64,000 nucleotides of DNA from an uncultured Clostridia bacterium (lineage in GTDB: Bacteria > Bacillota > Clostridia > Christensenellales > UBA1242), in the NCBI GenBank assembly GCA_944382715.1, contig CALWNC010000005.1, positions 1 to 64,000 on the forward strand, read 5' to 3'. How positions within the stretch are numbered: the first letter of the stretch is position 1; each line of letters starts with the position of its first letter. A program made the position numbers and the translations under genes. Positions 37,677 through 57,262 of the stretch are shown here, in pieces. Below the pieces are notes generated by a model that was given only the letters and a program-made list of their open reading frames with translations, had not been told where the DNA came from and did not search any database.

Positions 37677-39764
37677 ATGATAGATGAGGAATTTTTAAAG
37701 TCAAAGTATAATGATGACTATGAAAAAATTACACATACGCAGTTTATGCTATCAGATAGATTTTCAGACGAAAAAGAACTGCTTGAAGATTCTGAAAATA
37801 TCGCCAGACTTGTTATAAATTTAAAACTTGATTCACGAAGCGTTTGTGCATCAATGATTTTTCCTTTCTTAAAAGCCGAAAAAATTTCAAGTGATGAATT
37901 TGAAGATGAAGAGATTAAACTTCTTCTTGAACTGCTTCAAAAATGTGAAAAATATTCTGCTGACTACTCTGATGCTGAAGGATTAAAAGAGATGCTTCTT
38001 GCAATCACAAAGGACATTAGAGTAATTATAATAAAAAGTGCAGAAATGCTTGTTTTTGCACGAAAAAATGTTGAAAATACTCATGATTTATCTGCAATTA
38101 ATGCATTTAAAGCAATCGATGATATTTTTGCTCCAATTTCTGCTAGACTTGGACTTAGTGAAATTAAATCCGAGTTTCAAGATTTGTCTTTTAAATTTCA
38201 TGAACCAGAGGTTTTCAAAAAATTAAGCGAAGATGTAGCAAAAGAAACTCGTGCTAATGGTCGAATGATGGAATGTGTGGTCCGTGACATTAAAAAGCTT
38301 ATGAAGAGTTCTAATATTGATTGCACTGTTTATGGTAGAATTAAGCACATTTCAAGTATTTATAATAAGATTAAAAATAAAAACTACACATTAAAAAATA
38401 TCTATGATATTTGTGCCGTTAGAATTTTAGTTAATTCAGTTAGTGAGTGCTATATGGCGCTGGGTTTTGTTCATGCAAATTTTGTTCCAGTTGATGGAAG
38501 ATTTAAAGATTACATTGCTAGTCCAAAACCAAATGGTTATAGATCTCTTCATACCACGGTCTATTTTGATAATGAATTTTTTGAAGTTCAAATTCGTACT
38601 TATGAAATGCATGACTTTGCTGAATATGGTGTAGCCGCTCACTTTCTTTATAAAGAACATAAAAAATCAATGGCAGGACTTGACAGTAAGTTACTTTGGA
38701 TAAGAAAATTACTTGAGAATAAGGATGATGTCTCAAGTGAAAAATTACTTGAAGAGTTGAAAACAGATGTGTATTTAGGTGAAATTTTTGTTCAAACTCC
38801 AAAGGGGAAAGTTATCAAACTTCTTGAAAATTCAACTCCAATAGATTTTGCTTATGCCATTCACTCAGATGTGGGAAATCATTGCACGGGTGCAAAAGTA
38901 AATGGAATTATGACTCCGTTAATGTCACCACTTTCAAATGGTGATGTTGTTGAGATTATGACCTCAGTTTCTTCAAAAGGCCCTTCAAGAGATTGGCTTA
39001 AGATTGTCAAAATGCAGTCTACTAAAGATAAGATTAATAGCTTTTATAAAAAGCAAATGAAAGAAGAGAATATAAAACTCGGCAAATCTATGGTAGAACA
39101 ATATGCTAAAAATCTTGATGTCAGTTTATCTTCAATTCTTAAAGATGAATGGATAGAACCTATATTAAGGAAAAATTCATTTACTTCAATTGATGAGATG
39201 TATGCTGCAATTGGTTATGGTTCAATTACTGCTGAAAGATTTGTTAACAGACTACTAAGTTCAAAGAGAGCAGAAGAACAAAAAACAAAAACTATTCTTG
39301 ATGACATTGCCAAAAATCCTTTAAAATTTGAAACAAAGTCAGACATTATTGGGGCAGAGGGTACGCTTACTAAATATTGTAAATGTTGCAATCCAATTCC
39401 CGGCGATGATATTGTTGGGTATGTTTCAAGGGGAAGAGGTATAATTATACACAAAAAGTCTTGTGAAAATGTTTCAAAACTTCCTCAAGATAGGTTTATT
39501 AAAGTGGGCTGGAATGAAAATAAAAACGCTGACTTAACATTTACTTCTTTTGTTGACCTTGTTGCAAAAAATAATAATAATATTTATCTTGAGTTAACAA
39601 ATGCTTTAAGTGAACTTGGAGTAAAGGTTGCATCACTGAATTCAAATCAAAACAAACTTGGCGAGCTAATTTTAAAAGTTGGTGTACTTGTTAAAGATAA
39701 AAATCAGTTAACGCAGGTTAAAAACAAATTGGGCTCACTTGGCTCTGTTTATGAGGTGTTATAG
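37677..39764 (+). CDS. (p)ppGpp synthetase with degenerate hydrolase domain
   Basis: A 695-residue RelA/SpoT-family protein that should make (p)ppGpp from ATP and GDP/GTP. The synthetase domain keeps its motifs: GRIKHISSIYNKI (220-232), RFKDYIASPKPNGYRSLHT (275-293) and EVQIRT (303-308). TGS (about 368-430), a helical region and a C-terminal ACT domain (about 625-695) follow, as in long Rel proteins. The N-terminal hydrolase domain is recognisable but has lost its metal site: the LLHD position reads MIFP (60-63) and the LADR position SAEM (121-124). The protein is thus predicted to be synthetase-only. It is third in the activase operon, with an AAGGAG ribosome site. Confidence 0.93.
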   Translation: MIDEEFLKSKYNDDYEKITHTQFMLSDRFSDEKELLEDSENIARLVINLKLDSRSVCASMIFPFLKAEKISSDEFEDEEIKLLLELLQKCEKYSADYSDAEGLKEMLLAITKDIRVIIIKSAEMLVFARKNVENTHDLSAINAFKAIDDIFAPISARLGLSEIKSEFQDLSFKFHEPEVFKKLSEDVAKETRANGRMMECVVRDIKKLMKSSNIDCTVYGRIKHISSIYNKIKNKNYTLKNIYDICAVRILVNSVSECYMALGFVHANFVPVDGRFKDYIASPKPNGYRSLHTTVYFDNEFFEVQIRTYEMHDFAEYGVAAHFLYKEHKKSMAGLDSKLLWIRKLLENKDDVSSEKLLEELKTDVYLGEIFVQTPKGKVIKLLENSTPIDFAYAIHSDVGNHCTGAKVNGIMTPLMSPLSNGDVVEIMTSVSSKGPSRDWLKIVKMQSTKDKINSFYKKQMKEENIKLGKSMVEQYAKNLDVSLSSILKDEWIEPILRKNSFTSIDEMYAAIGYGSITAERFVNRLLSSKRAEEQKTKTILDDIAKNPLKFETKSDIIGAEGTLTKYCKCCNPIPGDDIVGYVSRGRGIIIHKKSCENVSKLPQDRFIKVGWNENKNADLTFTSFVDLVAKNNNNIYLELTNALSELGVKVASLNSNQNKLGELILKVGVLVKDKNQLTQVKNKLGSLGSVYEVL

Positions 39765-42648: not shown

Positions 42649-42677
42649 TTGAAAAAGTAGTGTTTTTTTGGTATTAT
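42649..42677 (+). promoter_or_regulatory. Promoter abutting the release-factor-like gene
   Basis: TTGAAA (42649-42654) and TATTAT (42672-42677) with a 17-base spacer. The -10 ends six bases before the ATG at 42684 and no ribosome site precedes it, so the mRNA is predicted to be leaderless. Confidence 0.6.
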
Positions 42678-42683
42678 ATTACT

Positions 42684-43679
42684 ATGGCAGATTTAAATCA
42701 GCAATTCGTAGTGCAATTAAAAGAAATTGAAAGGGAATTTGATGAGCTAAATGAGCTTTTAAACTCCGTAGAAATTATGTCAGATAATGTGCTTTTTTTG
42801 TATTATAAAAAAAGATATGATGAGATTTCTGTTATTGCAAATAAATTTAAGCAGTTAAAAATAATTGAAAAACAATTGATTGAAAATGAAGAGATTTTGC
42901 GTAGTGAAGAGGAAAATTCGTTAATCTCTGAATTTAAAGAAGATATAGTTGCTTTGACAGACCAAAAACAAAAATTAATTACAGAAATTAAGCAAGAAAT
43001 TGCAGACTCAAAAGTTGTATGTGTGGAAGTTGCCAAAGTTGAAGTTTCTTATAGTAATGGCGAAAAAGAAAATTTGCAAGTATTAAAGGATTTATTAAAA
43101 AATTATGCCAATCAAAAACAAGCCTCAATAAATGTAATTAAACAAACTGAAACTTCTTATAGTTGTGAGATAACTGGATTAAATTCTTATTGTGATTTAT
43201 CTTTACTAATTGGGAATAATAAAATCATAAATCAAAAAAAAGAATCTTTATTTAAGGTCTCTGTTTTAAAATTAGTTCGAGAAGATTATAAATTAAACGA
43301 AGATGATATTCATATTGAAACTTTAAAGTCCAGTGGAGCAGGAGGTCAGCACATAAATAAAACTGAAAGTGCGATAAGGATTGTACACATACCAACTGGC
43401 ATTAGTGTATTGTGCCAAGACGAGCGTTCGCAAAAAATGAATAGAGAAAGAGCATATACGCAGTTACAAGAAAAATTAAATAATTATTATCAAAAAAAAC
43501 AACAAAAAGAACTGGAAAATCAAAGAAAATTAATAAAAAATGCACTTTTTTCAACTACTCCGACTTGTGTTTTTGATTTTGACAAGCATAAATTTATTTA
43601 CACCAAAACCAAAAAAGAATATGATATTTCACAAATTTTAAATGGAAATTTAGAAATTATTTCAAGAGATATAATATAA
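42684..43679 (+). CDS. Release-factor-like GGQ protein
   Basis: A 331-residue class I release factor homologue. A helical N-terminal domain (about 1-110) precedes a shortened middle domain. The catalytic domain is well conserved: [18 protein letters not shown] with GGQ at 220-222, then HIPTGI, CQDERSQ and a basic coiled tail. The codon-reading part is not: where RF1 and RF2 have the PxT/SPF loop and the HRVQRVP...GRIHTS stretch, this protein has unrelated sequence (about 165-200). It should hydrolyse peptidyl-tRNA but not read standard stop codons as RF1/RF2 do. It heads a six-gene operon, and the helicase frame starts within its stop codon. It could be a divergent true RF or a ribosome-rescue factor. 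Confidence 0.82.
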
Positions 43680-46108
43680 TGGCAAATAAAATTAATGTTG
43701 AAGTAAATAGTGGTAAAACAATTCTTTCAAGTGAAACTAAGATTTTCAAAACTGAAAGTTTCTTTTATCAAACAAAAAAAATTGCAAATATTGATAATTT
43801 TATCTTAAAAATTGCAGAAAATTTCACAAATTTATTTGAAAAAATCAAATCGTTAGATGGTACTAATTCTGCAAATGCATTTTGTGTTCAAACACTTAAT
43901 GGTGAGTTTTCTTTTCTGTTTAAACTGGGATATCAAATAAATGGAATTTATGGTATAAATGAAAAAGATATAATATTTTTTGAAATGATAAACGGAAAAG
44001 ATAAATTAAAATCAAAGGATCAAAGAATTAATATATTTTTGAAACAATCCAAAATCTTTACCGTGGTTATATCACCTTTTATGGCAGAAATAGATGAATC
44101 TATTTTTAAAAAGAATTACTTGATTTCATCTTCTGAGTTTATAAATTTTCCAATGCTTAGCGAAAAGCAAATGAAGTTAGTTCAAATAGAAAATGAAAAT
44201 GTTTTAGTTCAAGGCGTAGCTGGAAGTGGCAAAACAAATGTTTGTATCAGTAAAATAATTTTTACAGCTAGTAGATTTTATTCAGGTAAGATTCTCTATA
44301 CTACCTTTTCAAGGGGGCTATTGATTGATACTAAAAATAAGATAGAAATTTTCAAAAATTCTATTCAAAACTTAATAGACGATTATAAAAATAATAGAAT
44401 AGTTTTTCTAGATAAAAATCATAAGAAGGCAATTGAGAATAGGCTTGGAATTTATATAGTTTCGAACAATGATACAAATACAATAAAATCATTAGAAAAA
44501 ATGGTTGAGTTTTTTAACAAACAAATAGACTACAAATTATTCGAAGACTTATATAGAGATACTTTTGGGGAAGAACCAAAAATTTGTGGCGAAAATGAAT
44601 TTATTAAAGAGTTTTTACCAAACTTACAAAATCACCAACTTAAAAATAGACTTGATAAATTAAAAAATATTTCATTATCAATAATTTATAAAGAAATTTA
44701 TGGAATGATATTTGGTTGTTTTAAAGATGAGTATGAATTGTTGACGCTTAACGAGTACAAGGAAAAAAGACAAGGTAGTTTTAGTGGAGAAGAATGTGAA
44801 ATAATATATTTACTTGCAAAAGAGTTTGATAAATATAAAAAATCGCAAAACTTGTTTGATAATAACAGTATTTCCTTCAAATTAATGCAAAATATAGAAA
44901 AAATAAAAAAATATTCACTTTCAATAATTGACGAAGTTCAAGATTATACAGAGAAGAACTTAAATTTTTTAAAGCAAATTTCTATAAAGATGTTTTGTGT
45001 TGGTGATGCTCTTCAAATGATTAACCCTTCATATTTTAGTTTTGCCTATTTAAAGCAATTAATGTATAGGGAAGGTGTCACCAATGTTGCAGAACTTGAA
45101 TGCAATTACAGAAACAATAAAAAAATTGTTGAACTATTAGATGGTTTGTCGGAAATAAACACAACATTTTTTGGGACCCATAGCTTTGTTTTAAAGGGTG
45201 AAAGTATAGATGAAAATACACTTTCAAATGTAATATATACTGGTGACAAGCAGTTTATAGAAAAACTTAAAAGTGAAAAATTTGAAAATTTTACAATACT
45301 TGTAACTGACCAAAAAGAAAAAAATGAACTTAAAAAACTAATCAACAAGCAAGAAATTTTGACAATTTCTGAAGTAAAAGGTTTAGAAAGAGAAACAGTA
45401 GTTTTATATAACATTTTATCGGATAATAGTGATAAGTGGCTTAGACTTAATGAACTTAAAATTAATCATAAAACCGCCGATGAAAATTCTGTTTATAGAT
45501 ATTATTTTAATCTATTTTATGTGGGGTTATCAAGGGGGAAACACAATATCTTTGTTTATGAATGCAAAAAAATCCCAATCTTTGCTGATTTTATAAACGA
45601 AAACTTTTCGATTTTAAATGGGAACGATGCCTATGATAAATTTACTGATATTGTTGGCAAAATTGAAATTGATGAAGATGATATATTAGAAAGAATTAAT
45701 GAATTTATAAAACTTGGTCAATTTGACAATGCAAGATTTTATGCAGATAAGCTTGATGACGACTTTGAAAGTAAAAGGCAGTTTGAAAAGATTGATGCTT
45801 ATGAAAACTATATATTTAAAGGGAAGAATAAGCAGGCAGGTATAAAACTTTGGAAAGCAGGTCTAATTACCGAGGCAAAAGAACAGTTTGAAATTTGTGG
45901 TGAAAAAAAATTAATTGAATTCTTAGAAACTCTTGAAAATAAAAATCAAACTAATCTTGATGCTGATATTGTGAGATTTTTTGTTGATTTTGAAGATAAC
46001 CCAGACGCACAGGAATTAATATTAGATGTGCTCCGTCAAGATTTGGAACAGGTTAAAGAAAATCATAAAGTAATTAAGGAAAAACTCAAAAAATATAAGG
46101 AGAAATAG
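43679..46108 (+). CDS. UvrD-like superfamily 1 helicase with helical repeat tail
   Basis: An 809-residue protein. An N-terminal domain of unknown type (1-165) precedes SF1 motifs: Walker A GVAGSGKTN at 179-187, motif II IIDEVQD (Asp418-Asp422), motif III CVGDALQMI, motif IV CNYRNN, motif V TISEVKGLE and motif VI FYVGLSRGKHN. Residues about 640-809 hold TPR-like helix pairs (FDNARFYADKL, ITEAKEQFEICG). This resembles the UvrD-repeat layout of TRANK1-like proteins more than repair helicases. The ATG shares its A with the stop codon of the release-factor-like gene. It may act on RNA or ribosomes rather than DNA; this is inference. Confidence 0.82.
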   Translation: MANKINVEVNSGKTILSSETKIFKTESFFYQTKKIANIDNFILKIAENFTNLFEKIKSLDGTNSANAFCVQTLNGEFSFLFKLGYQINGIYGINEKDIIFFEMINGKDKLKSKDQRINIFLKQSKIFTVVISPFMAEIDESIFKKNYLISSSEFINFPMLSEKQMKLVQIENENVLVQGVAGSGKTNVCISKIIFTASRFYSGKILYTTFSRGLLIDTKNKIEIFKNSIQNLIDDYKNNRIVFLDKNHKKAIENRLGIYIVSNNDTNTIKSLEKMVEFFNKQIDYKLFEDLYRDTFGEEPKICGENEFIKEFLPNLQNHQLKNRLDKLKNISLSIIYKEIYGMIFGCFKDEYELLTLNEYKEKRQGSFSGEECEIIYLLAKEFDKYKKSQNLFDNNSISFKLMQNIEKIKKYSLSIIDEVQDYTEKNLNFLKQISIKMFCVGDALQMINPSYFSFAYLKQLMYREGVTNVAELECNYRNNKKIVELLDGLSEINTTFFGTHSFVLKGESIDENTLSNVIYTGDKQFIEKLKSEKFENFTILVTDQKEKNELKKLINKQEILTISEVKGLERETVVLYNILSDNSDKWLRLNELKINHKTADENSVYRYYFNLFYVGLSRGKHNIFVYECKKIPIFADFINENFSILNGNDAYDKFTDIVGKIEIDEDDILERINEFIKLGQFDNARFYADKLDDDFESKRQFEKIDAYENYIFKGKNKQAGIKLWKAGLITEAKEQFEICGEKKLIEFLETLENKNQTNLDADIVRFFVDFEDNPDAQELILDVLRQDLEQVKENHKVIKEKLKKYKEK

Positions 46109-46110
46109 AT

Positions 46111-46824
46111 ATGGATAATAAAGAAGTAAATTCATTGATAGAGGCATTTGTTGGATATAGAGAAATGCTTGTGCCAATTCAGTCAGATTTAAGTGAATTT
46201 CTAAATACCTATGAACTACTCAGAACAGATATTGATAAACTTTCAAATTCTTTTTCAGATGACGCGAAGTCAAAACTTGATGAAATTTATAAAAGCTTGG
46301 CAATTCAAGCTCAAAAGTCAGAAGAATTAACAAAAAAGGTTGACCAGTTTTTGAGAAGTTCAACTAAATATACAGAAGAAGTGGATAAATTAATTTCTAC
46401 TTTTGAAAATATTGAAACTAGGATAACGGGTATTAACGAGATTGAAAAGAGAGCAGAAACTCAGATTGCAAAATTAGACGCTATAATGGAAGAGAAAAAA
46501 AGGAGTTATAATCTTAAAGAACTTGAAAAGAGTTTAGATAGCTATAATGCAAATCTTCAGGCAGTAAGTGATTTTGTTAATAAAGATGTGGCTGAAAATA
46601 TTGTTTCTAATACCAAAATGATTCAATCAATAAAAGATGGAAGCGAAAATATTGTAAAAAGACTTGAAGACGAGAAGAAAAGTATTGATGAATTATATTT
46701 AAGCTATAAAACTTCAAACGATTTGCTTCGTAAAATTGTTGAAAAAGACGATGTAAATGAAGAATATATATTTGATATTATTGATAAGTGGGCAGAAAAT
46801 AGACATATAAAAATAAAAAAATAG
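46111..46824 (+). CDS. Coiled-coil protein, function unknown
   Basis: A 237-residue, highly charged, cysteine-free protein that is nearly all heptad-patterned helix (about 10-215), with a short C-terminal segment (EEYIFDIIDKWAENRHIKIKK). No membrane segment or signal. It starts two bases after the helicase stop, with an AAGGAG site, and ends 13 bp before the beta-helix membrane protein. It could link the cytoplasmic helicase to the membrane protein of the same operon, but this is only suggested by order. Confidence 0.7.
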   Translation: MDNKEVNSLIEAFVGYREMLVPIQSDLSEFLNTYELLRTDIDKLSNSFSDDAKSKLDEIYKSLAIQAQKSEELTKKVDQFLRSSTKYTEEVDKLISTFENIETRITGINEIEKRAETQIAKLDAIMEEKKRSYNLKELEKSLDSYNANLQAVSDFVNKDVAENIVSNTKMIQSIKDGSENIVKRLEDEKKSIDELYLSYKTSNDLLRKIVEKDDVNEEYIFDIIDKWAENRHIKIKK

Positions 46825-46837
46825 GAGGTAATTATTT

Positions 46838-49072
46838 ATGGATAGTCAAAGCATTAAAACTCTATTTCAAGCAGTAAAAAATGATGACTTAAAAACCTTT
46901 AAAAGTTTAATTTTGTCAAACTCAGATTTAAATTTATGTTTTGGCAGATTTCCTCTCCTATCAGTATGTTATCTCTATAATAGTTACAACATTTTAAATA
47001 AGTATGAAAAGTATATGCTAGGTATAAAGACCTATAATGAGGTCACAGAATATATAGAAATTTATTTAAAGTTTAAAAAATATGCAAAAAAATCAATAAG
47101 ACTTTTTTTAAATGGTGAAAAGGTTGAACCTATACTTATGCTCGCGGTTATTGATGAGCGAGAAAAAATCGCAAAATATTATGATAAACTTTATAAAAAT
47201 GATGAAATTTTGCAAAAATTAGAGATAATTTATAAAATTACTAATAAAGAAATAGTTTATGCAAATCAAAATTTATTTGAGGCGGCTTCAAAAAAGGTTG
47301 CAGTAAAAAAGCCACTAGGTCTTATTTTAACTGCCCTAGTAATGTGTTTAATGTTGGTCTTTCCAATAATTAGCATAACAATTATTTCTAATAGTTATGG
47401 AATTGGATCAAGGTCTAATCCAATACATATTAGAAATGAAACAGAATTTATAACTGCTCTAAATAAGGGAAGTAGATATTATATTCTTGACAATGATATA
47501 TATTTAACTCAAAATATCACTGTAGCAAATTTTTCTGGAACACTTGATGGAGATAACTATACCATTTATGCTGGTGATAGTCAAACGGGAGCAATTTTTA
47601 CAAATCTTAGTGGCAGTATAGAGAATATTAAAATTGAAATTGAGTATGAAAATTTGCAAATTCGTGGTAATTTTTCTGTAATTGCACATAATTTAACGGG
47701 AAATATTGTAAACACTGAAATTGCAGGCAATATAAATGCTGTCTTTGAAACAACTTCAGATACTTATCTTTCCCTGTATGTTATTAATAATAGCGGTACT
47801 ATTTCAAATTGTAATTTAAGTGTAGATGTTTCTGTTTCAAACTCATCAAATCAAAATGCATACTTAACGGGGTTCTCTGGAGTAAACTCTGGTTCAATTA
47901 TTAATTGTAAAACTGGAAATAACTTATTTACCACTGAAACGGTAGACACGGCTACATATGCGATTGAAAATAATGGAACAATTTCTGATTCATCAAGTTC
48001 TGTGTCTTTGACTCAAACTTCAGATAAAGAATGGCACCCTAACACTGCTGGAATTGCAATTAATAATAATGGCACAATTTCTAACACTCAAAATTTTGGC
48101 AGTGTGAGTTCAATTTCTAATAATGAACTGACTTCTTCTTCTGTAAATTCAAGTTTCGCACTTTATGCTAGTGGTGTAGTAGTAAATAATGCAGGTACAA
48201 TTTCAAATACCGAGAATTCAGGTTTAATTACTGGAATCGCACAGACTGCAAATATTTATGTTTCGGGTATAGTATGTTTAAATACTTTTAGTTATGAAAT
48301 TAACGGCAACCAGTTAAGTATAACTTCTCAGGGCAGAATAGATAATTGCAAAAATTTAGGTACGATTACTGGAACTTCACAAAGAAATGATCTAGAATCT
48401 GTCTATTTATATGCTGGAGGAATTGCCAGTGTTAGCTTAACCACCATTTCAAATTCTACCAGTTCGGGAAAAATAAATTGCAGTTCAGTTTCTTCAATTA
48501 TTTATGCTGGAGGAATTGCAGGTCAAGGTGGTTATGGTAATTATAGTGCATATGTTGAAAGAAATATTTCAAATTCATTTTCGGATTGTCAAATAGATGT
48601 TAGTTCAAATGTAGAAGTAATTGTTGGTGGTGTGGTTGGTTACAGCTATGCAACTAATATTAACGGTTCGGGTTTTGTTGGAAATATTAATATTAACTCT
48701 GTAATTGCAGAAGTTGGAGGCATTGCAGGGTTTGCATATCTTGCAACAATTTCAAACTCATATTCTGGTGCAAGCTTTAGTTTAGTAAGTGGCAGTGAAA
48801 GTGGCAGCCAAGAAGGGAATTCTCAAGCAGAAGAAAATCAAGTTTATATCTCAATGCTTGTGGGTTTGTATTTGACAAATTCAACAACAATTTATGTATC
48901 GAACAATTTATCAGTGGAAAATGTTACTTATCCTGCACTTAGATACCAACAAATAAATATTTTTGGTAATTATTCTGAAATTGTTGAAGTGACTGCCAGT
49001 GAATGCAACACTACACTTTTTGGCTCGGTAGAGGAAATGCTTGAATATGTACAAAGTGGAGGTGTAAACTAA
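46838..49072 (+). CDS. Membrane-spanning protein: helical inside domain, beta-helix outside domain
   Basis: A 744-residue protein in three parts. Residues 1-155 are helical and cytoplasmic, starting with ankyrin-like LFQAVKNDDLKTFKSLI. One membrane helix lies at about 160-184 (ALVMCLMLVFPIISITII). Residues about 190-744 are a repetitive, Asn/Ser/Thr-rich region with many G-x-I-x-N and GGIAG turns (GTISNTENSG, AGGIASVS, VGGVVGYS), as in GLUG-motif right-handed beta-helix surface proteins. There is no LPXTG anchor or signal peptidase site, so the membrane helix is the anchor. An adhesin or glycan-binding outer domain with an inside contact domain is likely. The next frame overlaps its stop codon. 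Confidence 0.78.
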   Translation: MDSQSIKTLFQAVKNDDLKTFKSLILSNSDLNLCFGRFPLLSVCYLYNSYNILNKYEKYMLGIKTYNEVTEYIEIYLKFKKYAKKSIRLFLNGEKVEPILMLAVIDEREKIAKYYDKLYKNDEILQKLEIIYKITNKEIVYANQNLFEAASKKVAVKKPLGLILTALVMCLMLVFPIISITIISNSYGIGSRSNPIHIRNETEFITALNKGSRYYILDNDIYLTQNITVANFSGTLDGDNYTIYAGDSQTGAIFTNLSGSIENIKIEIEYENLQIRGNFSVIAHNLTGNIVNTEIAGNINAVFETTSDTYLSLYVINNSGTISNCNLSVDVSVSNSSNQNAYLTGFSGVNSGSIINCKTGNNLFTTETVDTATYAIENNGTISDSSSSVSLTQTSDKEWHPNTAGIAINNNGTISNTQNFGSVSSISNNELTSSSVNSSFALYASGVVVNNAGTISNTENSGLITGIAQTANIYVSGIVCLNTFSYEINGNQLSITSQGRIDNCKNLGTITGTSQRNDLESVYLYAGGIASVSLTTISNSTSSGKINCSSVSSIIYAGGIAGQGGYGNYSAYVERNISNSFSDCQIDVSSNVEVIVGGVVGYSYATNINGSGFVGNININSVIAEVGGIAGFAYLATISNSYSGASFSLVSGSESGSQEGNSQAEENQVYISMLVGLYLTNSTTIYVSNNLSVENVTYPALRYQQINIFGNYSEIVEVTASECNTTLFGSVEEMLEYVQSGGVN

Positions 49073-49365
49073 TGAGGCTTTTAGGGAAATTATTATATCA
49101 GAAAAATAATAAGCTAAAGTTTATTTTATTAATATTATTATTTTGTCTTGCAATTTTAGATATTACTTTGATTATTTTTGATATTGTACAGTTTGTATTA
49201 GTTGAAAACAATAGGGCAAGCTTGTCAACATTCTTTGTACCTTTTAATGTAATATCAATAATATTAAACGCTGGCTGTTTGATTTATTTGATTGTTGTGG
49301 TGGCACTTAGTTTAAGAAAAGTTAAAAGTAAAGTAAAAAGGGAAAATAATAATGAACGGATTTGA
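49072..49365 (+). CDS. Small two-TM membrane protein
   Basis: A 97-residue protein with two hydrophobic helices (about 16-40 and 58-82) and a basic C-terminal tail (RKVKSKVKREN), so both ends are probably cytoplasmic. The ATG overlaps the stop codon of the beta-helix protein, and the frame overlaps the following HAD gene by 14 bases. This is tight coupling that implies joint function with its neighbours. Family not recognised. Confidence 0.68.
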   Translation: MRLLGKLLYQKNNKLKFILLILLFCLAILDITLIIFDIVQFVLVENNRASLSTFFVPFNVISIILNAGCLIYLIVVVALSLRKVKSKVKRENNNERI

Positions 49366-49918
49366 TTTTGATAAAACAATTTATAGAGGTGATTGCAGTA
49401 CTAATTTCTTTTTCTATATGATTTTCACTAGGTTTTATTTGCTTATATTTTCGCCTTACTTTTTAGTTGTTTTTTTACTTTATGGTTTACATTTAATAGG
49501 CAAGAAAAAGTTTAAAGAACTAATGTTTTTCTTTATTCCATGGCATAAGAATATTGATAAAATAACTGCAAAATTTTGGAAGAAAAATATAAAAAAAATA
49601 GAAAATTGGTACCTTGATATTCAAAAAGATGATGACATTATCATATCTGCAGGACTTGAATTTATTGTAAGACCAGCAATAGAGATGCTTGGAATAAAAA
49701 CGCTTTTGGCGACAAGGTATGATACAAGTACTGGAAAAATATCTGGTGAAAATTGCTATAATAAAGAGAAAGTCATAAGATTTAGAGAAATTTATCCTAA
49801 TGAAACACTTGAAGCCTTTTATAGTGACTCGCTGAGTGATTTGCCAATGATGGAAATCTCAAAAAGAGCATTCTTGGTTACAAAATCAAAGCCAAATGAA
49901 ATTTATGTAAATAAATAG
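49352..49918 (+). CDS. HAD-IB phosphatase with hydrophobic cap
   Basis: A 188-residue HAD-superfamily phosphatase of the phosphoserine-phosphatase type. Motif I is FDFDKTI (Asp5, Asp7), motif II is SAGLEFIVRP, motif III has Lys in GENCYNKEKVIR, and motif IV is YSDSLSDLPMM. The cap region (about 18-55) is a strongly hydrophobic stretch (YLLIFSPYFLVVFLLYGL) that may sit in the membrane, as in HAD-IB enzymes acting on lipid-linked or membrane substrates. It is the last gene of the release-factor-like operon. Confidence 0.82.
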   Translation: MNGFDFDKTIYRGDCSTNFFFYMIFTRFYLLIFSPYFLVVFLLYGLHLIGKKKFKELMFFFIPWHKNIDKITAKFWKKNIKKIENWYLDIQKDDDIIISAGLEFIVRPAIEMLGIKTLLATRYDTSTGKISGENCYNKEKVIRFREIYPNETLEAFYSDSLSDLPMMEISKRAFLVTKSKPNEIYVNK

Positions 49919-50301
49919 GAATACAACTATATTAATGTTAGTAAAAAATAGAAAGTCAAAAAAATAAATATTTTCTTAAATAAATATTTTTAATATATAA
50001 AAATAATATATTAGCTTACTATTTTTTAAACTACTAAAAAGAGCATTTTACTTTATGTACATATTAACTTTTTTTTATTTTTTTATTCTGCCAATTTAGA
50101 AATGATTTAACCTTAGTCTGCTATTCTTGAAACTAATAAAAAAGGAACTTTACTTTTTTGTGTATAGTTCCTTTTGTTTTTGTGCTAATTTCAAATTGTT
50201 TTTTTGTGCTAGCTTCAAAAGGTTTAATTTTACAAATATTTATTGTAAATATTATAAATTTGAAAGATTTAAAATAATTTTGAACATTTTATTTTATTAT
50301 T
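49919..50301. other. Intergenic region between the operon and the CRISPR locus
   Basis: AT-rich, no gene. A terminator at about 50138-50182 (AAAAGGAACT / AGTTCCTTTT, then GTTTTTG) closes the upstream operon. The 50 bp around it resemble the segment at 50013-50062, suggesting a decayed earlier copy of the same terminator. Immediately after it, two imperfect direct repeats of about 24 bp (TTTTTGTGCTA...TTCAAA) lie at about 50176-50225. Confidence 0.6.
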
Positions 50302-50330
50302 TTGAAAAATAAACTTATTTATGTTATACT
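50302..50330 (+). promoter_or_regulatory. Candidate cas9 operon promoter
   Basis: TTGAAA (50302-50307) and TATACT (50325-50330) with a 17-base spacer point toward cas9. The mRNA would start near 50337 and carry a leader of about 125 bases that is antisense to the entire tracrRNA gene. Confidence 0.6.
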
Positions 50331-50421
50331 AAAAAAAGAAAAGACTGAAAGGTCTTTTCTTTTGCATCACCTGATGCTGTGATTAGATAACATTTATTTG
50401 AACTCGTTATGTTATTCTAAT
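50331..50421 (-). ncRNA. tracrRNA of the type II-A CRISPR system
   Basis: Read on the minus strand from A50421. The anti-repeat pairs with the array repeat through 14 bases (50406-50419, complementary to GTTATGTTATTCTA). A four-base bulge (GAGT) and a six-base lower stem (UCAAAU against GUUUGA) follow, the same geometry as S. pyogenes. Next come a nexus-like segment (AAATGTTATCTAATCA), a hairpin GCATC/GATGC (50364-50377), and a terminator hairpin GAAAAGAC/GTCTTTTC (50338-50359) with seven T. Size is about 91 nt. Its promoter starts transcription almost exactly at the anti-repeat. Confidence 0.9.
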
Positions 50422-50427
50422 GTGTTA

Positions 50428-50456
50428 ATTATATCATTAATTTCATAAGGAGTCAA
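50428..50456 (-). promoter_or_regulatory. tracrRNA promoter overlapping the cas9 ribosome site
   Basis: On the minus strand TTGACT (50451-50456) and a perfect TATAAT (50428-50433) are separated by exactly 17 bases. The -35 element overlaps the cas9 AAGGAG (50447-50452), so cas9 translation signals and tracrRNA transcription signals share the same DNA. Confidence 0.85.
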
Positions 50457-50460
50457 ATAT

Positions 50461-53400
50461 ATGATTGATAAAAATTATTTTATTGGTTTTGATATTGGAA
50501 CAAATAGTGTTGGATATGCAGTAACTGATACAAATTATAATATAATTAGGTTAAAAGGGAAGCGAGCTTGGGGTGTTCGTCTTTTTGATGAGGCAAAAAC
50601 GGCAGTAGAGAGAAGGGCAAAGCGTGCGAGTCGTCGTAGACTTGATAGGAGAAAACTTAAACTGAAATGGCTTCAAGAAATTTTTGAACCTGAGATCAAT
50701 AAAATTGATAATAAATTTTTAATTCGTTTAAAATATAGTAATTTATGGCAAGAAGATAAACTTAAAATGGACGATTCATTGCTCACAAAAGACTCACTTT
50801 TTTATGGAGAGGTTAACGGTAAAAATTATACTGACAAAGATTACTATAATGAATACCCAACAATCTACCATTTACGAAAAGAGTTGACTCAAATACCTGC
50901 AAAAGATGTGAGATTTTTGTATCTCGCACTGCACAACATAATCAAAAGAAGAGGTCACTTTTTATACGAGGGAATGTATAGTCAAAATATTGATTTTGCA
51001 AAGATATATAACGAGTTTTTAGTTTATTGCAAAAATATAAATGAAGAAATGTTGAGTTTTTCATTAAATGCAATTTTAAATAATTCTGAAAGTGAAATTT
51101 TATCATATCTAAAGATTGGTTCTATTAGAGATAGAAAACTACAATTTTATAAATTGATGGGTGCTAACGACAAAACTTCAAAAAAGATTGTTGATATTAT
51201 GTTAGAAGGAAAGGGGACCACAAAAGATATTTTTATTTTGGGGGAAGAAATAGAGCCTACTAAATTTTCTTTTGATGATCCAAATTTTGAGGGTGAAATC
51301 TATTATGAACTTTCAAAGGTTTTAAGTGATGAACAATTAATTTTAATTGATAAATTAAAAGAAATCAATTCGGTTTTAAACTTAAAAAAAATTCTTGGGG
51401 AAAACAATTACATTTGTGAAGCAATGGTAGATGTTTTTAATGAACATAAGTTACAACTCAAAATGTTTAAGCACTTTATAAAAAAATATCATTCTTCAAA
51501 ATATTTTGATATTTTTAGAAATCCTCTTTCAAGTGAAAAAAATAAGTTTTCTTTTGTGAATTATCCATATTATATTGGATTGTCAAACTTTGGTGGAAAT
51601 GGAAAATTTAAGAATATTGGGAGTAGTGTTACACTTACAAACTCAAAAGGTCTAAAAGAAGATTTTTATAAGTTTGTTATGGAAATTTTAAATTTGCCAC
51701 CAGAAAAAACTTTAAATATTGATGAATATAAAAGTAAAAAGGCTGAAATTATTGAGCTTATTGAAAATAATAATTTCTTAAACAGACAAAGGTCAAGAGC
51801 AAATACAGTATTTCCAAACAAACTATATGAAAAGGAAGTAAGAAGAATTTTAGATATAAATGTAACAAAATTTAGTTTTTTAAAAGCAACTGATGATACT
51901 GGACTCACAAATTATGAAAAGATTTTAAAAATTTTAACATTTAAAATTCCTTATTTTGTTGGACCTATTGGAAACGGCAAAGAAGATGAAAACACTTATT
52001 CTTGGTCTAATAGAATTAGTAATCAACCTATTTACCCATGGACAATAGACAAAATTGTTAATTTTGATATATCCGAAGAAGCATTTATCAGTAAAATGAT
52101 AAATAAATGCACTTATTTAAGTGATTACTATGTTCTTCCAAAACATTCACTTCTTTATAGTAGATTTTGCGTGCTAAATGAATTAAACAAATTAAAAATT
52201 AATGGAAACAATATAAGTGTTGAATTAAAGCAGTTAATATTTAATAAATTATTTAAGAACTCGAAAAAAGTCACCCTGAAAAGTTTAAAGGAATTTTTAC
52301 TTTGTGAAGGAAAATTTTCAAATGATGAAATAAAGGATATTGAAATTTCTGGAATAGATAAAGATTTTGCAAACGATTATTCATCATATTATCAAATGAA
52401 AAATATCTTTGGTGAAGAATTCATTGATGGAAATTTGGATATTGTAGAAAATATTATCAAGTACATTACAATCATAAATGATAAAAATAGACTTGAAAAA
52501 AGGATTGAAAGAGAGTATGGTAATATTATTTCTACCGAAAATATAAAGAAGCTAAAAGCATTGAATTATTCTGATTGGGGAAGATTATCTGAAGAATTTA
52601 TTGCAAAATTATTCTTTATTAATATAAAAACAGGTGAAAAAACTACAATAATTGATGAACTTTGGAATACGAACCAAAATTTGCAAGAAATTTTATTTAA
52701 TAGTTCATACACTCTAAATGATGTTTTAGAAACGAATTCGCAAAAGACTATTAAAGATTTGACTTATGAGAGTGTGCAGGAACTTTATTGCTCGCCTAGT
52801 GTAAAGCGTGGCGTTTGGCAAACTATTTGTATGCTAAAAGAGATTATAAAACTTACTGGAAAAGAACCTGAGAAAGTTTTTGTTGAAGTTACTCGTCATG
52901 ATGAGAAAAAAGGTGAAGATGGAAGAAAACTTTCAAGAAAAAATAACTTGTTAAAAATATATAATTCAAAAGAGTTTAAGTCAATAGTAAATGAAATAGA
53001 TTTTGATTTATCTAAGCTAAATGATGAACTTAATAGTAAAAATGACAGTGAACTTAGAAGCGAGAAATTATATTTGTATTTTTTGCAACTGGGGAAGTGC
53101 GCTTATTCAGGTGAGCCAATAAATATTTTAGATATATACAAAGATAATTTATATGATGTTGACCACATTATACCACAGTCTATTTTGAAAGATGATAGTA
53201 TAACAAATAAGGTTTTAGTAAAACAGGATTATAATAAAAATAAAAGTGATACTTATCCAATTTCAAAAAGATTTAATTGGGTGAAGCAACAGGATTATTT
53301 TTGGAAAATTTTAGTAAAATTAAATCTCATGGATAAGGAAAAATATTCAAGACTTGTCAGAAATGATGACTTGACCGAAGATGAGATAGGTGGTTTTGTT

Positions 53401-54711
53401 GCAAGGCAACTTGTGCAAACCAATCAAACTGTTAAGGCAGTTGTTGATTTGATAAAGAATTCTTTAAGTAATTCACGAAATGTTGTTTATTCAAAAGCTA
53501 GATTCGTATCAGAATTTAGAAAAGAAACGGAGATTTTTAAAAGTAGAGAGGTAAATGACTATCATCATGCAAAAGATGCATACCTTAATGTTGTTGTTGG
53601 CAATATCTTGTATAATAGATTTACTGATGATCCAAGAAATTTTTATAAAAATAAATTTAATATAGGTAAGACTAAGAACATAAAAAAGCTTTTTAAAGAA
53701 ACAATATTTAGTTATAGGAATGGTGAAATCATTTGGAATGGATTAAGTGATATTTCAAGAATAAAAGAAATTGCAAACAGAAACGATTGCATTGTAAGTC
53801 ATATGAGTTTTAAAAACTTAAATGGTGCATATTATGATGAAACCATATATAAAAGTCATAAAAACAATAAAAACACAAAAGCAAAAATTAGTTTAAAGGG
53901 AGATGAGAACAATCCACTAAGTTCATATGAAAAATATGGTGGGTATAATAATATGTCGTCTGCTTATTTTATGCTTGTTGAAAGTGAAGATAAGAAAGGA
54001 AATAAGATAAAAACCATAGAAACTGTGCCAATATTTGCAGTTAGAAAATTTAAAGGGAACGATGATTTTGATGAAAAAATCTTAGATTATTTAACAAAGG
54101 AAAATCATTTGATTAATGCAAGAGTACTCATAAAAGATTTAAATATTAAATCAACTATAAAAATTGGTAAAGGCGAATATTTGCTTGCAGGAAAAACTGA
54201 AGATAGATATGTACTCCACAATGCAAATGAATGGAATATTTCTAATGAGAATATTAAATATATAAAGGGAATTGAAAAATATATTCAAATGAAAACTCAG
54301 AAAAAAACTGCAAATCTTATGGAAATTGACGAAAAAGTAGTTATATCTCCTAAGGCAACCGATAAAAATTCTGAAATTATAATAAGCAAAAAAGAAAATG
54401 AAAATCTATACGAGTTGTTAATTGCTCAGTTTGATAAGGATATGTATAAGGGCTTGGCTCTTGAAAATGTTGGGAAAAAATTAAACGAAAAGAAAGAAAA
54501 GTTTGACTCTTTGTCAGCATTAGAGCAGGCTGAACTTATTTTTAATGTCATAAAGAGGCTTTCAACTGGTGCCACACTTGCAGATTTAAAATTAATAGGA
54601 GATAGTTCCAATGTTGGTAAAATATCAATAAGTAAGAATATAACAAACTTAGATGTGTATTTAATTAAACGCTCATTTACTGGCTTATTTGAAAAACACA
54701 TTAAACTTTGA
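50461..54711 (+). CDS. cas9: Cas9 endonuclease, type II-A
   Basis: A 1416-residue RNA-guided DNA endonuclease, slightly longer than SpyCas9 (1368). RuvC-I has Asp11 in FDIGTNSVGYAV. An Arg-rich bridge helix (KRASRRRLDRRKLK, about 55-70) and a long recognition lobe follow. RuvC-II has Glu809 in VFVEVTR, the HNH domain has Asp901/His902 in DVDHIIPQS and an Asn in NKNKSD, and RuvC-III has His1035 and Asp1039 in YHHAKDAYLN. All catalytic residues are present, so the enzyme should be active. The C-terminal PAM-interacting region differs from well-known Cas9s, and I cannot predict the PAM. AAGGAG ribosome site eight bases from the ATG. First gene of cas9-cas1-cas2-csn2. Confidence 0.98.
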   Translation: MIDKNYFIGFDIGTNSVGYAVTDTNYNIIRLKGKRAWGVRLFDEAKTAVERRAKRASRRRLDRRKLKLKWLQEIFEPEINKIDNKFLIRLKYSNLWQEDKLKMDDSLLTKDSLFYGEVNGKNYTDKDYYNEYPTIYHLRKELTQIPAKDVRFLYLALHNIIKRRGHFLYEGMYSQNIDFAKIYNEFLVYCKNINEEMLSFSLNAILNNSESEILSYLKIGSIRDRKLQFYKLMGANDKTSKKIVDIMLEGKGTTKDIFILGEEIEPTKFSFDDPNFEGEIYYELSKVLSDEQLILIDKLKEINSVLNLKKILGENNYICEAMVDVFNEHKLQLKMFKHFIKKYHSSKYFDIFRNPLSSEKNKFSFVNYPYYIGLSNFGGNGKFKNIGSSVTLTNSKGLKEDFYKFVMEILNLPPEKTLNIDEYKSKKAEIIELIENNNFLNRQRSRANTVFPNKLYEKEVRRILDINVTKFSFLKATDDTGLTNYEKILKILTFKIPYFVGPIGNGKEDENTYSWSNRISNQPIYPWTIDKIVNFDISEEAFISKMINKCTYLSDYYVLPKHSLLYSRFCVLNELNKLKINGNNISVELKQLIFNKLFKNSKKVTLKSLKEFLLCEGKFSNDEIKDIEISGIDKDFANDYSSYYQMKNIFGEEFIDGNLDIVENIIKYITIINDKNRLEKRIEREYGNIISTENIKKLKALNYSDWGRLSEEFIAKLFFINIKTGEKTTIIDELWNTNQNLQEILFNSSYTLNDVLETNSQKTIKDLTYESVQELYCSPSVKRGVWQTICMLKEIIKLTGKEPEKVFVEVTRHDEKKGEDGRKLSRKNNLLKIYNSKEFKSIVNEIDFDLSKLNDELNSKNDSELRSEKLYLYFLQLGKCAYSGEPINILDIYKDNLYDVDHIIPQSILKDDSITNKVLVKQDYNKNKSDTYPISKRFNWVKQQDYFWKILVKLNLMDKEKYSRLVRNDDLTEDEIGGFVARQLVQTNQTVKAVVDLIKNSLSNSRNVVYSKARFVSEFRKETEIFKSREVNDYHHAKDAYLNVVVGNILYNRFTDDPRNFYKNKFNIGKTKNIKKLFKETIFSYRNGEIIWNGLSDISRIKEIANRNDCIVSHMSFKNLNGAYYDETIYKSHKNNKNTKAKISLKGDENNPLSSYEKYGGYNNMSSAYFMLVESEDKKGNKIKTIETVPIFAVRKFKGNDDFDEKILDYLTKENHLINARVLIKDLNIKSTIKIGKGEYLLAGKTEDRYVLHNANEWNISNENIKYIKGIEKYIQMKTQKKTANLMEIDEKVVISPKATDKNSEIIISKKENENLYELLIAQFDKDMYKGLALENVGKKLNEKKEKFDSLSALEQAELIFNVIKRLSTGATLADLKLIGDSSNVGKISISKNITNLDVYLIKRSFTGLFEKHIKL

Positions 54712-54718
54712 GGTAAAA

Positions 54719-55618
54719 ATGGGATTTAGAACTATTGTTATTCAAAATCGCTCCAAACTTGATTTAAAGATGAATTATTTGGTTTGTCGAGGAGAAAATG
54801 AAATTAAAGTATATATTCCTGAAATATCCTATTTAATATTAGAATCAACTGCAATTTCACTCACAACTGCATTACTTAGCGAGCTTATAAAAAATAATGT
54901 AAAAGTAATATTTTGTGACGAGAAGCACAGTCCAGAAAGTGAACTCGTTGGATTATATGGGAACTATAATTGTGTTAGTAAATTAAAAAGTCAAATTTTT
55001 TGGAAGGAAGATATTAAGTCGTGGATATGGCAAGAAATTATAAAAAATAAAATCTATCAACAATCTCTTTTTTTGAATGAACTAAATTATAAACAAGAAT
55101 TTGAACTATTAAACAATTATTATCAAAATGTTGAAATAAATGATACGACTAATCGTGAGGGTCATTCTGCAAAAGTATATTTTAATGCTATTTTTGGCAA
55201 TGATTTTTGCAGAAGGGAAGAGGGAAACATTAACAGGGCATTAAATTATGGCTATTCACTTTTGCTTTCGTGTTTTAATCGTGAGATAGTGAAACAAGGA
55301 TATTCTACACAACTTGGCATTTGGCATAAAAATGAGTTTAATTACTACAATTTAAGCAGTGATCTTATGGAACCATTTAGAATCATTGTTGATAGATTTG
55401 TATTTAAAATATTAATTCAAAGTGTTGACTTTAAAGAATATAAGTTGCAATTACTAAAAATATTTGATTTACAACTTCTTATTGACGGGAAAAAACAATT
55501 TTTAGAAAATGCAATTTCAATTTATTGTCAAAGCATTTTTGAAAATCTTAATAATAATTTAAGGAATAAGATAAAATTTTATGAGTTGCAGAATTATGAG
55601 AATGATAATATTTTTTGA
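54719..55618 (+). CDS. cas1: Cas1 integrase, type II-A
   Basis: A 299-residue spacer integrase; with Cas2 it inserts new spacers at the leader end of the array. The opening MGFRTIVIQNRSKLDLKMN and the REGHSAKVYFNAIFG segment, holding metal-binding Glu and nearby residues, are typical of type II Cas1, as is LMEPFRIIVDRFVF. I start at the ATG 54719, with GAGG six bases upstream overlapping the cas9 stop; an in-frame ATG at 54689 lies inside cas9. The length fits the family (about 290-305). Confidence 0.96.
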   Translation: MGFRTIVIQNRSKLDLKMNYLVCRGENEIKVYIPEISYLILESTAISLTTALLSELIKNNVKVIFCDEKHSPESELVGLYGNYNCVSKLKSQIFWKEDIKSWIWQEIIKNKIYQQSLFLNELNYKQEFELLNNYYQNVEINDTTNREGHSAKVYFNAIFGNDFCRREEGNINRALNYGYSLLLSCFNREIVKQGYSTQLGIWHKNEFNYYNLSSDLMEPFRIIVDRFVFKILIQSVDFKEYKLQLLKIFDLQLLIDGKKQFLENAISIYCQSIFENLNNNLRNKIKFYELQNYENDNIF

Positions 55619-55901
55619 TTTACCCACCATAACAACAAAGGATTTAAAGGAATATAGAAACTTTAGAAAATTTTTAATAAAAAATGGTTTTATTATGATG
55701 CAAGAGTCAGTATATTCAAGGTTGATTTTAAATAATAATTCTGCAAAGTTATTAAAAAATCAAGTTTATAAGAATCTTCCAAGTGCTGGACTTATTCAAA
55801 TGCTTCAAGTTACTGAAAAACAATTTGCAAATATTGAATATATGAGGGGAAAATCTCAAAATAAAATTTTAGATTCAAATGAAAGGATAACTATTTTATG
55901 A
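55596..55901 (+). CDS. cas2: Cas2, type II-A
   Basis: A 101-residue structural partner of Cas1 in the integration complex. It begins MRMIIFFDLPT, with the conserved Asp of the ferredoxin-like fold, and continues with YRNFRKFLIKNGFIMMQESVYSR, standard for type II Cas2. The frame overlaps the end of cas1 by 23 bases; an earlier ATG at 55581 would add five residues. The csn2 ATG overlaps its stop codon (ATGA). Confidence 0.95.
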   Translation: MRMIIFFDLPTITTKDLKEYRNFRKFLIKNGFIMMQESVYSRLILNNNSAKLLKNQVYKNLPSAGLIQMLQVTEKQFANIEYMRGKSQNKILDSNERITIL

Positions 55902-56560
55902 AGCTTGTTCATTCAGATTTCTTATTTCAAATAGATTTTGAAGAAAATGATTGCTACTCATTAATAATTGAAAATTCAAAAGAATTTTATAATAAAACTA
56001 ATGAGTTATACTGTCAATCCAATGGAGGTGACGGAAATTTTGTATTGTCAGATAATTCTGAAATAAGCATATCAAAAAATTGTCTTTATATTTATGACTA
56101 TTATGGGGATTTTTTAAATAGTAAAAAGACTATTTCATCAATAAATAAAAAAGTAGTAGAGATTTTAAAAAACAATGATTTTCTTCAAGAGTTTAATGAA
56201 ATTAATAAATTGATTTTTAATATTAATGATAGGGTAATTGAAGAACTGGATTATAATGTTGAATATATTGATAATTTTGATTTTGAAACATTTGTAAAGT
56301 TGTCTAATTATACGATAAAAACAGATGTGTCATTGCTTGAAAATTTAATTGCATATATCCAAATTTATGCACAAAATGAAAATAAAAAATTGTTAGTGTT
56401 TATTAACTTGTTTTCAGTTTTAGAAAAAGAAGAGATAAAATTACTAATAAAACAAATTAGATATATGCAATTAAATATTTTATTTATTGATTCAAACCAA
56501 AAATACAAATTTGAGGATATAAAAACAATTATAATTGATGAAGACCTTTGTATAATTTGA
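55898..56560 (+). CDS. csn2: Csn2, type II-A adaptation protein
   Basis: A 220-residue member of the classical short Csn2 group, the same length as the S. pyogenes protein. Csn2 forms Ca2+-stabilised tetrameric rings that bind DNA ends during spacer acquisition. The N-terminal strand-rich part (MKLVHSDFLFQIDFEEND), the central helical region and the ending VFINLFSVLEKEEIKLL, then LNILFIDSNQKY, match the family pattern. It overlaps cas2 by four bases. Its stop codon lies inside the array promoter. Confidence 0.93.
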   Translation: MKLVHSDFLFQIDFEENDCYSLIIENSKEFYNKTNELYCQSNGGDGNFVLSDNSEISISKNCLYIYDYYGDFLNSKKTISSINKKVVEILKNNDFLQEFNEINKLIFNINDRVIEELDYNVEYIDNFDFETFVKLSNYTIKTDVSLLENLIAYIQIYAQNENKKLLVFINLFSVLEKEEIKLLIKQIRYMQLNILFIDSNQKYKFEDIKTIIIDEDLCII

Positions 56561-56585
56561 CAAAAGAGAGTAAAAGTACTAGAAT
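56557..56585 (+). promoter_or_regulatory. CRISPR array promoter overlapping the csn2 stop
   Basis: Perfect TTGACA (56557-56562), whose TGA is the csn2 stop codon, and TAGAAT (56580-56585) with a 17-base spacer. Transcription should start near 56592, about 44 bases before repeat 1. Confidence 0.82.
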
Positions 56586-56590
56586 AAAAA

Positions 56591-56635
56591 TATATAGAAT
56601 AAATGCCGTAAGCATAAATAATTCCGATCTTTGAG
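56591..56635 (+). promoter_or_regulatory. CRISPR leader with anti-repeat and integration-anchor motif
   Basis: TATATAGAATAA (56591-56602) is the exact reverse complement of bases 15-26 of the repeat, so the 5' end of the pre-crRNA can fold onto repeat 1 (56650-56661) with a loop of about 47 bases. The leader ends CTTTGAG (56629-56635) directly against repeat 1, one base from ATTTGAG, the leader-anchoring sequence known for streptococcal type II-A integration. Confidence 0.75.
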
Positions 56636-57133
56636 GTTTGAGAGTTATGTTATTCTATATACTACTAAAACTAAAAAGTTTTATTGATGGTTATTTGAGT
56701 GGTTTGAGAGTTATGTTATTCTATATACTACTAAAACTTCTTCGGCATCGTAATCCAAATTGCCAGTGTTTGAGAGTTATGTTATTCTATATACTACTAA
56801 AACAATGTATAATGCTATCATAATTCATCCTTCGTTTGAGAGTTATGTTATTCTATATACTACTAAAACAAAAGCAAATCACGAGTAATAGGAACATAAG
56901 TTTGAGAGTTATGTTATTCTATATACTACTAAAACGATTGTTTAAACGAAAAAATTAAATAAGGTGTTTGAGAGTTATGTTATTCTATATACTACTAAAA
57001 CGTTTTAGAAATAGTAAAACATATGAAACAAGTTTGAGAGTTATGTTATTCTATATACTACTAAAACGTTTTGCCTAATGGAACTAGTCCAGATGCAGTT
57101 TGAGAGTTATGTTATTCTATATACAACTATAAT
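56636..57133 (+). CRISPR. CRISPR array, 8 repeats and 7 spacers, type II-A
   Basis: Repeats of 36 bases start GTTTGAGAGTTATGTT and end ACTACTAAAAC. They begin at 56636, 56702, 56768, 56834, 56900, 56966, 57032 and 57098. All seven spacers are exactly 30 bases. The first seven repeats are identical; the last differs at about three positions in its 3' end, the usual sign of the leader-distal end, which puts the leader on the csn2 side. The repeat aligns with the S. pyogenes type II-A repeat in the same orientation and is complementary to the tracrRNA found upstream of cas9. Confidence 0.99.
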
Positions 57134-57262
57134 TATAAATGCAAAATAATTTAATTTGTAGCTATATTTGTTTTGCGATGGCTGATAAATGGGAATAAAA
57201 AACTACAATAGATAATATTATTAAAAAGTAAAATATAAAAAAAGATAACCTACTTTATTATT

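Follow-up and report, generated by a model that had tools for sequence, protein, structure and literature searches.

In the 64,000-nucleotide (nt) stretch of DNA analysed here, hereafter the window (positions 1 to 64,000 of contig CALWNC010000005.1, assembly GCA_944382715.1, from an uncultured Clostridia bacterium; Christensenellales; UBA1242), we find a conserved five-gene unit on the plus strand at 42684-49365. It begins with the gene for a release-factor-like protein (RFL), followed by those for an SF1A helicase, a coiled-coil protein, a membrane protein with a predicted extracellular beta-helix, and a small protein with two transmembrane (TM) helices (2-TM protein). As read from the sequence, what is established is the unit itself, its conservation and co-occurrence, the preservation of the GGQ and ATPase motifs, and the absence from RFL of both elements that read stop codons. 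RFL would represent a further class of bacterial GGQ factor, one in which both codon-reading elements are lost and the catalytic site is perfectly kept. We propose, with slightly less than even confidence, that the RFL system carries out codon-independent peptide release on ribosomes unable to terminate normally, together with the helicase and the coiled coil and near the membrane.

Catalytic site and codon-reading elements of RFL

RFL matches the Pfam RF-1 (GGQ) domain (E 6.7e-30) and the PCRF domain (29.3 bits; cut-off 24 bits), and its profile matches RF1 structures over the full length (E about 1e-76), in an alignment that starts at RFL residue 7. The GGQ motif is present in 74/74 RFLs, and also in 32/32 sequences of a joint alignment. 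The surrounding GxGGQ-NK pocket is invariant or nearly so in the 74 proteins while the remaining sequence drifts, and domain 1 retains the PE-x-x-D motif.

The elements that read the stop codon are not retained. Profile alignment places a gap of about nine residues in RFL exactly at RF1 HRVQRVPATESQGRIHTS, the PxT loop; the PxT/SPF anticodon loop is found in 0/32 aligned RFLs and is retained by the RF1s shown from the same genomes. Two regular-expression matches to PxT/SPF among the RFLs fall outside the loop, one after a strand (L107) and one in the N-terminus (L154). The GG motif at the tip of helix 5, which touches the first base of the stop codon in RF1 and RF2 (PMC1586002), is kept as GG(D/E)EA in only 1/74 RFLs. 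This protein (L130 2500-3549, G047) carries GGEEA together with a somewhat longer loop and is possibly an intermediate between RF1 and RFL. The switch-loop region and domain 2 are strongly diverged in the joint alignment, and some RFLs are only about 250-285 amino acids long. Recoding, suggested by '1 TGA' inside three RFL matches, was rejected: the TGA sits just upstream of the start codon.

Curated models place RFL outside the known families, with 131.7 bits for prfA (cut-off 423), 103.6 bits for prfB (cut-off 370), 96.7 bits for the PrfH model TIGR03072 (cut-off 166.65) and 47.4 bits for ArfB (cut-off 100). In a quick tree, whose long branches leave the exact origin open, RFL forms a clade separate from RF1 and RF2 (SH-aLRT 99). 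The host genome (1.61 Mb) also encodes an ordinary RF1 (359-amino-acid open frame) and an ordinary RF2 (387-amino-acid open frame) elsewhere, and RFL is therefore its third release factor.

The bacterial GGQ factors in the survey PMC6514570 are RF1, RF2, ArfB and PrfH. RFL resembles RF1 and RF2 in domain order, GGQ domain and full-length profile match, but differs from them in lacking the PxT/SPF loop and GGxEA, in its altered switch loop and in its separate clade. With ArfB (YaeJ)/ICT1 and C12orf65 it shares the GGQ motif and, presumably, stop-codon-free action, which is known for those proteins; domains 1 and 2 are missing from them and they rely on a basic tail, whereas RFL has three domains. 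PrfH (RFH) is the nearest known release factor whose anticodon loop is altered, and the nearest precedent in logic is PrfH-RtcB2, a counter-toxin system that restores ribosomes after cleavage by colicin E3 (PMC9223846; PMC6514570). In both systems a GGQ paralogue with altered anticodon loop and helix-5 GG shares a sporadically distributed operon with an enzyme acting on nucleic acid (PMC1586002, PMC6514570, PMC9223846). PrfH, however, lacks the domain 1 that RFL possesses (PCRF match, RF1 alignment from residue 7), shows a gap of 3 residues in the anticodon loop where RFL has lost about 9, and carries GP in place of GG where RFL lacks the GG motif altogether. The partners also differ, with a helicase, a coiled coil and membrane proteins beside RFL; RtcB is neither among the unit's own genes nor among the 25 commonest families listed for 122 flanking genes.

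The preliminary description of this DNA had held that the combination matches no system known to its author, and PADLOC, the survey PMC6514570 and the open-licence literature searched likewise gave none, with a description outside open-licence papers possible. We call the system new because its partners match those of none of the known GGQ systems; RFL, for its part, adds a new branch to a superfamily already known.

Partner proteins, co-occurrence and predicted leaderless start

Pfam assigns the helicase gene to UvrD-helicase. Its structure model (pLDDT 83.5) best matches Rep (Z 19.0, root-mean-square deviation 3.9, 399 residues aligned), followed by UvrD/PcrA with Z 17-18 over residues about 156-650. 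The protein carries the SF1A motifs (Walker A, DExQ Walker B, motifs IV-VI, Rep/UvrD core fold), and Walker A and a DExQD Walker B are found in 80/80 helicase loci. It is like Rep, UvrD, PcrA, HelD and GajB in core fold and in all ATPase motifs, but unlike its SF1A relatives in its own N-terminal domain, its helical tail and its constant partners RFL, coiled coil and membrane protein. A RelE/ParE-like N-terminus, a possible link to the ribosomal A site, was considered and found no support in profile comparisons and PDB searches: hhalign gives a probability of about 0.2% against ParE, and the only match, a weak one, is to the N-termini of distant helicases. Distant helicases do carry a RelE-looking motif. 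The structure search (VIA/Foldseek) reached neither helicase residues 1-146 nor the ankyrin-like part of the membrane protein, and a missing match for these parts carries no weight.

In the membrane-protein model, an N-terminus that is helical and resembles ankyrin is followed by a basic stretch, a TM helix (residues 157-186) and a beta-helix that superimposes on that of IgA1 protease (Z 25.0, root-mean-square deviation 3.0, 260 residues). The predicted topology places the ankyrin-like part inside and the beta-helix outside. The predicted extracellular part folds like the beta-helix of IgA1 protease, of the type with GLUG surface repeats, but the protein lacks a protease domain, and its TM helix joins the beta-helix to an ankyrin-like cytoplasmic domain. 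The coiled-coil protein is 39-80% identical across the family, and the 2-TM protein has 72-112 amino acids in relatives, where in many loci its gene overlaps or closely trails the membrane-protein gene. The Pfam scan gave no convincing family for the coiled-coil, membrane and 2-TM genes, and for the coiled coil none above cut-off; its PADLOC match to ZorA of Zorya reaches only E 1e-4. The domain calls of the preliminary description are upheld by Pfam for RFL, the helicase and the HAD phosphatase encoded next, and by structure models for the helicase and the membrane protein.

Conservation was assessed in the best 80 helicase loci from an independent scan of one genome per species. The coiled coil accompanies the helicase in 79/80, RFL in 74/80 and the membrane protein in 73/80, absences falling mostly at contig ends, and RFL lies directly 5' of the helicase in 72/74. 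RFL, helicase, coiled coil and membrane protein follow one another in this sequence in several families, with differing flanks. Such recurrence, in several families of the taxonomic order and at 80 loci, shows that the unit is not a chance arrangement, and the conserved neighbourhood whose absence the preliminary description took as grounds for abandoning its proposal is present in relatives. The helicase occurs in 44/297 genomes of the order, in several families and with 36-46% identity outside the genus; in the family to which the window belongs, none of the other genera sampled has it.

Pairwise distances correlate with those of the helicase at 0.91 for RFL, 0.85 for the coiled coil and 0.82 for the membrane protein, compared with 0.58 for host RF1. 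Within the window's genus RFL is 39% identical, and RFL and the membrane protein together span 39-41%, where RF1 is 83% identical. Such fast divergence of both proteins fits a role in conflict better than housekeeping.

RFL and the helicase are also associated when they are not neighbours. Genomes without an adjacent RFL, namely G248, G269 and several of genus g60, mostly encode an unlinked RFL elsewhere. These unlinked proteins contain GGQ but no PxT loop. Only two release factors were found in a few g60 genomes of lower completeness. Among 40 relatives a third release factor is present in 7/7 helicase-bearing and 0/33 helicase-free genomes; these are not 40 independent points, because the 7 helicase-bearing genomes represent two lineages. 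Three of the unlinked g60 RFLs (L269 2973-3905, L270 414-1418, L271 3761-4774) lie near a gene for a SipW-type exported protein starting MKKRLLITSIVMMLVVAVALSTATYAWFTSN.

Spread beyond the order was looked for and rejected: in 391 class and 299 phylum genomes the helicase relatives were all partial (110-150 bits), and for the coiled coil no strong match turned up. Two or three of these distant helicase relatives have a coiled-coil gene next door. One such pair (L196 3647-9996) lies directly downstream of a DarT1-like gene and a NADAR antitoxin, with a CRISPR-like FQSPKGRLQT repeat frame nearby, a hint that helicase and coiled coil may form a module used in conflicts. At another locus (L195 5522-12328) genes for an AAA_5 ATPase of MoxR/McrB-like type and for a 745-amino-acid protein come after a distant helicase; these genes are possibly a separate conflict system.

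Upstream of RFL in the window, the last T of the -10 box (TATTAT) lies exactly 6 nt before the ATG, and no Shine-Dalgarno (SD) motif is present. From this spacing the predicted +1 is the A of the ATG, and the RFL mRNA is therefore predicted to be leaderless. As controls, and as an estimate of the genome-wide frequency of leaderless starts, we used 423 other genes of the same loci with an upstream gap of at least 60 nt. An extended -10 (TGnTAnnnT) 5-7 nt before the ATG is found in 45/88 RFL genes, 43 of these 45 with the exact 6-nt spacing, compared with 11/423 (2.6%) controls; Fisher's test gives p 1.6e-29, although the sequences are related and the figure is better read as an effect size. SD-like motifs precede 12% of RFL genes, 53% of other genes and 84% of coiled-coil genes. 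The unlinked RFLs L269 and L271 have the same leaderless-type start. The preliminary description had missed this start; it had also missed that some RFL genes are unlinked and that the system is confined to one order. We note that in two species of the window's genus (L066 1849-2769 and L067 9808-10695) a gene for a ...KICGLCAGC... protein also has an extended -10 box 6 nt before its ATG, an apparent leaderless start; we take this protein to be probably IspH.

Proposed function and competing explanations

In the codon-independent release that we favour, the products of the unit would play several roles: (I) RFL would act as a codon-independent peptidyl-tRNA hydrolase on stalled, collided or damaged ribosomes, (II) the helicase would serve it as an ATP-driven translocase, with the coiled coil as adaptor, (III) the membrane protein, ankyrin-like inside and beta-helical outside, would place or trigger RFL action at or near the membrane, and (IV) its beta-helix may sense or tether an outside attack (phage, bacteriocin or contact toxin) as the trigger. 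We infer a role in ribosome rescue or defence, in which the ribosome would be the target, helicase and RFL would act on one complex, and an outside attack would set the response off.

Leaderless mRNAs are still translated when kasugamycin blocks canonical initiation (PMC4929434), and a leaderless RFL mRNA would likewise be translated when SD/30S initiation is blocked; the predicted start thus suggests a route to keep producing a rescue factor under an initiation block. That RFL constitutes a new decoding-free release-factor class, made from leaderless mRNA and acting with a helicase and a surface sensor in a membrane-linked emergency response to translation attack, is a tentative idea that we consider possible and, on balance, doubtful. 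In either form RFL raises a testable question, namely whether and how a full-size release factor acts without decoding, and how it is coupled to the membrane.

Several observations weigh against codon-independent release on ribosomes as the unit's task, or against parts of it. Binding of RFL to the ribosome is something we infer, and the helicase could act on DNA. SmpB is encoded, so that trans-translation rescue is probably not missing, and the unit as its replacement was rejected for this reason. Some RFLs (e.g., L111, L155, L166) have a short leader with a normal SD, and some predicted RFL starts are uncertain. All 80 helicase loci come from uncultured Clostridia records (Clostridia bacterium, Clostridiales and Christensenella sp. 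metagenome-assembled genomes), with no cultured host. Carriage by phages or plasmids found no backing: phage records gave no match, viral contigs just one fragment of 35 residues, and plasmids nothing that covered 80%. A defence island was likewise rejected: the 122 flanking genes belong mostly to metabolic families, with scattered PADLOC matches, and we therefore see no consistent island of the kind that the preliminary description proposed to look for.

The main rival is an abortive anti-phage or anti-competitor effector, in which a sensed attack unleashes RFL and indiscriminate peptidyl-tRNA hydrolysis stops translation. Left unchecked, a GGQ factor that reads no codons would be toxic, and the patchy distribution, the fast divergence, the position of the distant helicase and coiled-coil pair beside DarT1 and NADAR, and the best PADLOC match of the helicase, a weak one to GajB of Gabija (E 1.7e-10), are all consistent with such an effector. 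However, neither the GajA partner (ATPase-TOPRIM) nor the ZorB partner has a match among the unit's genes in PADLOC, a consistent defence-island context is lacking, and the RFL gene can lie apart from the others, which would be unusual for a tightly controlled toxin. We regard this explanation as unlikely, but as the one to be taken most seriously after codon-independent rescue.

The second rival, housekeeping quality control of ribosomes that make membrane or surface proteins, would turn the unit into a membrane-tethered rescue station. Its two membrane proteins and, in the window's genus, the constant gene order between unchanging neighbours, gpsA and a relA-like gene among them, would suit this role; a housekeeping function is harder to reconcile with the absence of the unit from every other genus sampled in the window's family and with divergence far faster than that of RF1, and we likewise consider it unlikely.

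Improbable, in our view, is that RFL has left translating ribosomes and serves in regulation, in peptidyl-tRNA hydrolysis off the ribosome or in assembling the helicase complex: the diverged domain 2 and switch-loop region and the shortest members would allow this, but GGQ and its pocket stay invariant or nearly so in 74/74 proteins amid drift, and the PE-x-x-D motif of domain 1 is kept. Hardly credible at all, and already contradicted by the sequence, is a plain extra RF1 that reads stop codons, the objection foreseen in the preliminary description, since despite full-length similarity to RF1 the aligned family has lost both codon-reading elements, and the genome has its ordinary RF1 and RF2.

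Coordinates and neighbouring genes

All six plus-strand genes of the preliminary description are found as open reading frames where it had placed them, with overlaps or gaps of 1-14 nt, and its terminator near 50,150 corresponds to a probable intrinsic terminator (Table 1).

Table 1. Features of the unit and its immediate surroundings, in window positions.
Feature	Position	Strand	Remarks
Predicted promoter, TTGAAA - 17 nt - TATTAT	42649..42677	+	TGG just before -10 box; sequence scan; conserved in family vs control genes
RFL	42684..43679	+	release-factor paralogue with three domains; retains GGQ, lacks PxT/SPF loop and helix-5 GGxEA; in-frame GTG at 42660
GGQ catalytic motif of RFL, residues 220-222	43341..43349	+	invariant in 74/74 members
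SF1A (Rep/UvrD/PcrA-like) helicase	43679..46108	+	own N-terminal domain (1-150), helical C-terminal tail; 1-nt overlap with RFL
Helicase Walker A (GVAGSGKTN)	44213..44239	+	sequence motif
Coiled-coil protein, 237 amino acids	46111..46824	+	2-nt gap after helicase
Membrane protein	46838..49072	+	13-nt gap after coiled coil; ankyrin-like cytoplasmic part, one TM helix, predicted outside right-handed beta-helix
TM helix of membrane protein, residues 157-186	47306..47395	+	preceded by KKVAVKK (inside-positive)
Right-handed beta-helix of membrane protein, about residues 195-600	47420..48637	+	IgA1-protease/GLUG type
Small 2-TM protein	49072..49365	+	fifth conserved gene; 1-nt overlap with membrane-protein gene
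HAD-IB phosphatase	49352..49918	+	14-nt overlap with 2-TM gene; genus-level neighbour
Probable intrinsic terminator (AAAAGGAACT...AGTTCCTTTTGTTTTT)	50139..50180	+	read directly in sequence; loop too long for the terminator scan, which missed it

The sixth open reading frame, which extends to 49918, matches Pfam HAD (E 9.3e-17) and is probably co-transcribed with the unit in this genome. As a member of the system, however, which the preliminary description had made it, the HAD gene was rejected: it lies beside the unit in its own genus only. The CRISPR locus, whose adjacency the preliminary description had pointed out, fares similarly, as cas9 neighbours the unit in this genome alone and no cas9 homologue was found at the other cassette loci scanned. 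What stands of that earlier reading is a conserved, undescribed system, a GGQ protein without codon-reading loops and a receptor-like membrane protein; HAD membership and CRISPR adjacency as evidence of defence do not.

The CRISPR locus itself is of type II (50461-57135) and comprises cas9 (1416 amino acids), cas1- and cas2-like open reading frames, a 220-amino-acid open reading frame (55898-56560) and an array at 56634-57132 with a 66-nt period. Between the unit and cas9 lies a probable tracrRNA on the minus strand (50327-50456), with a strong extended promoter TTGACT-17-TATAAT (50456-50428), a CRISPR-repeat-like stretch near 50397-50421 and a minus-strand terminator at 50363-50334. On the other side, a large protein that looks RelA/SpoT-like by sequence (37677-39764) adjoins the unit in its own genus, and its homologue lies downstream of the unit in g60, which belongs to another family (L094 10076-12280, L096 10917-13088, L098 2858-5047); this neighbour common to two lineages is possibly due to chance.

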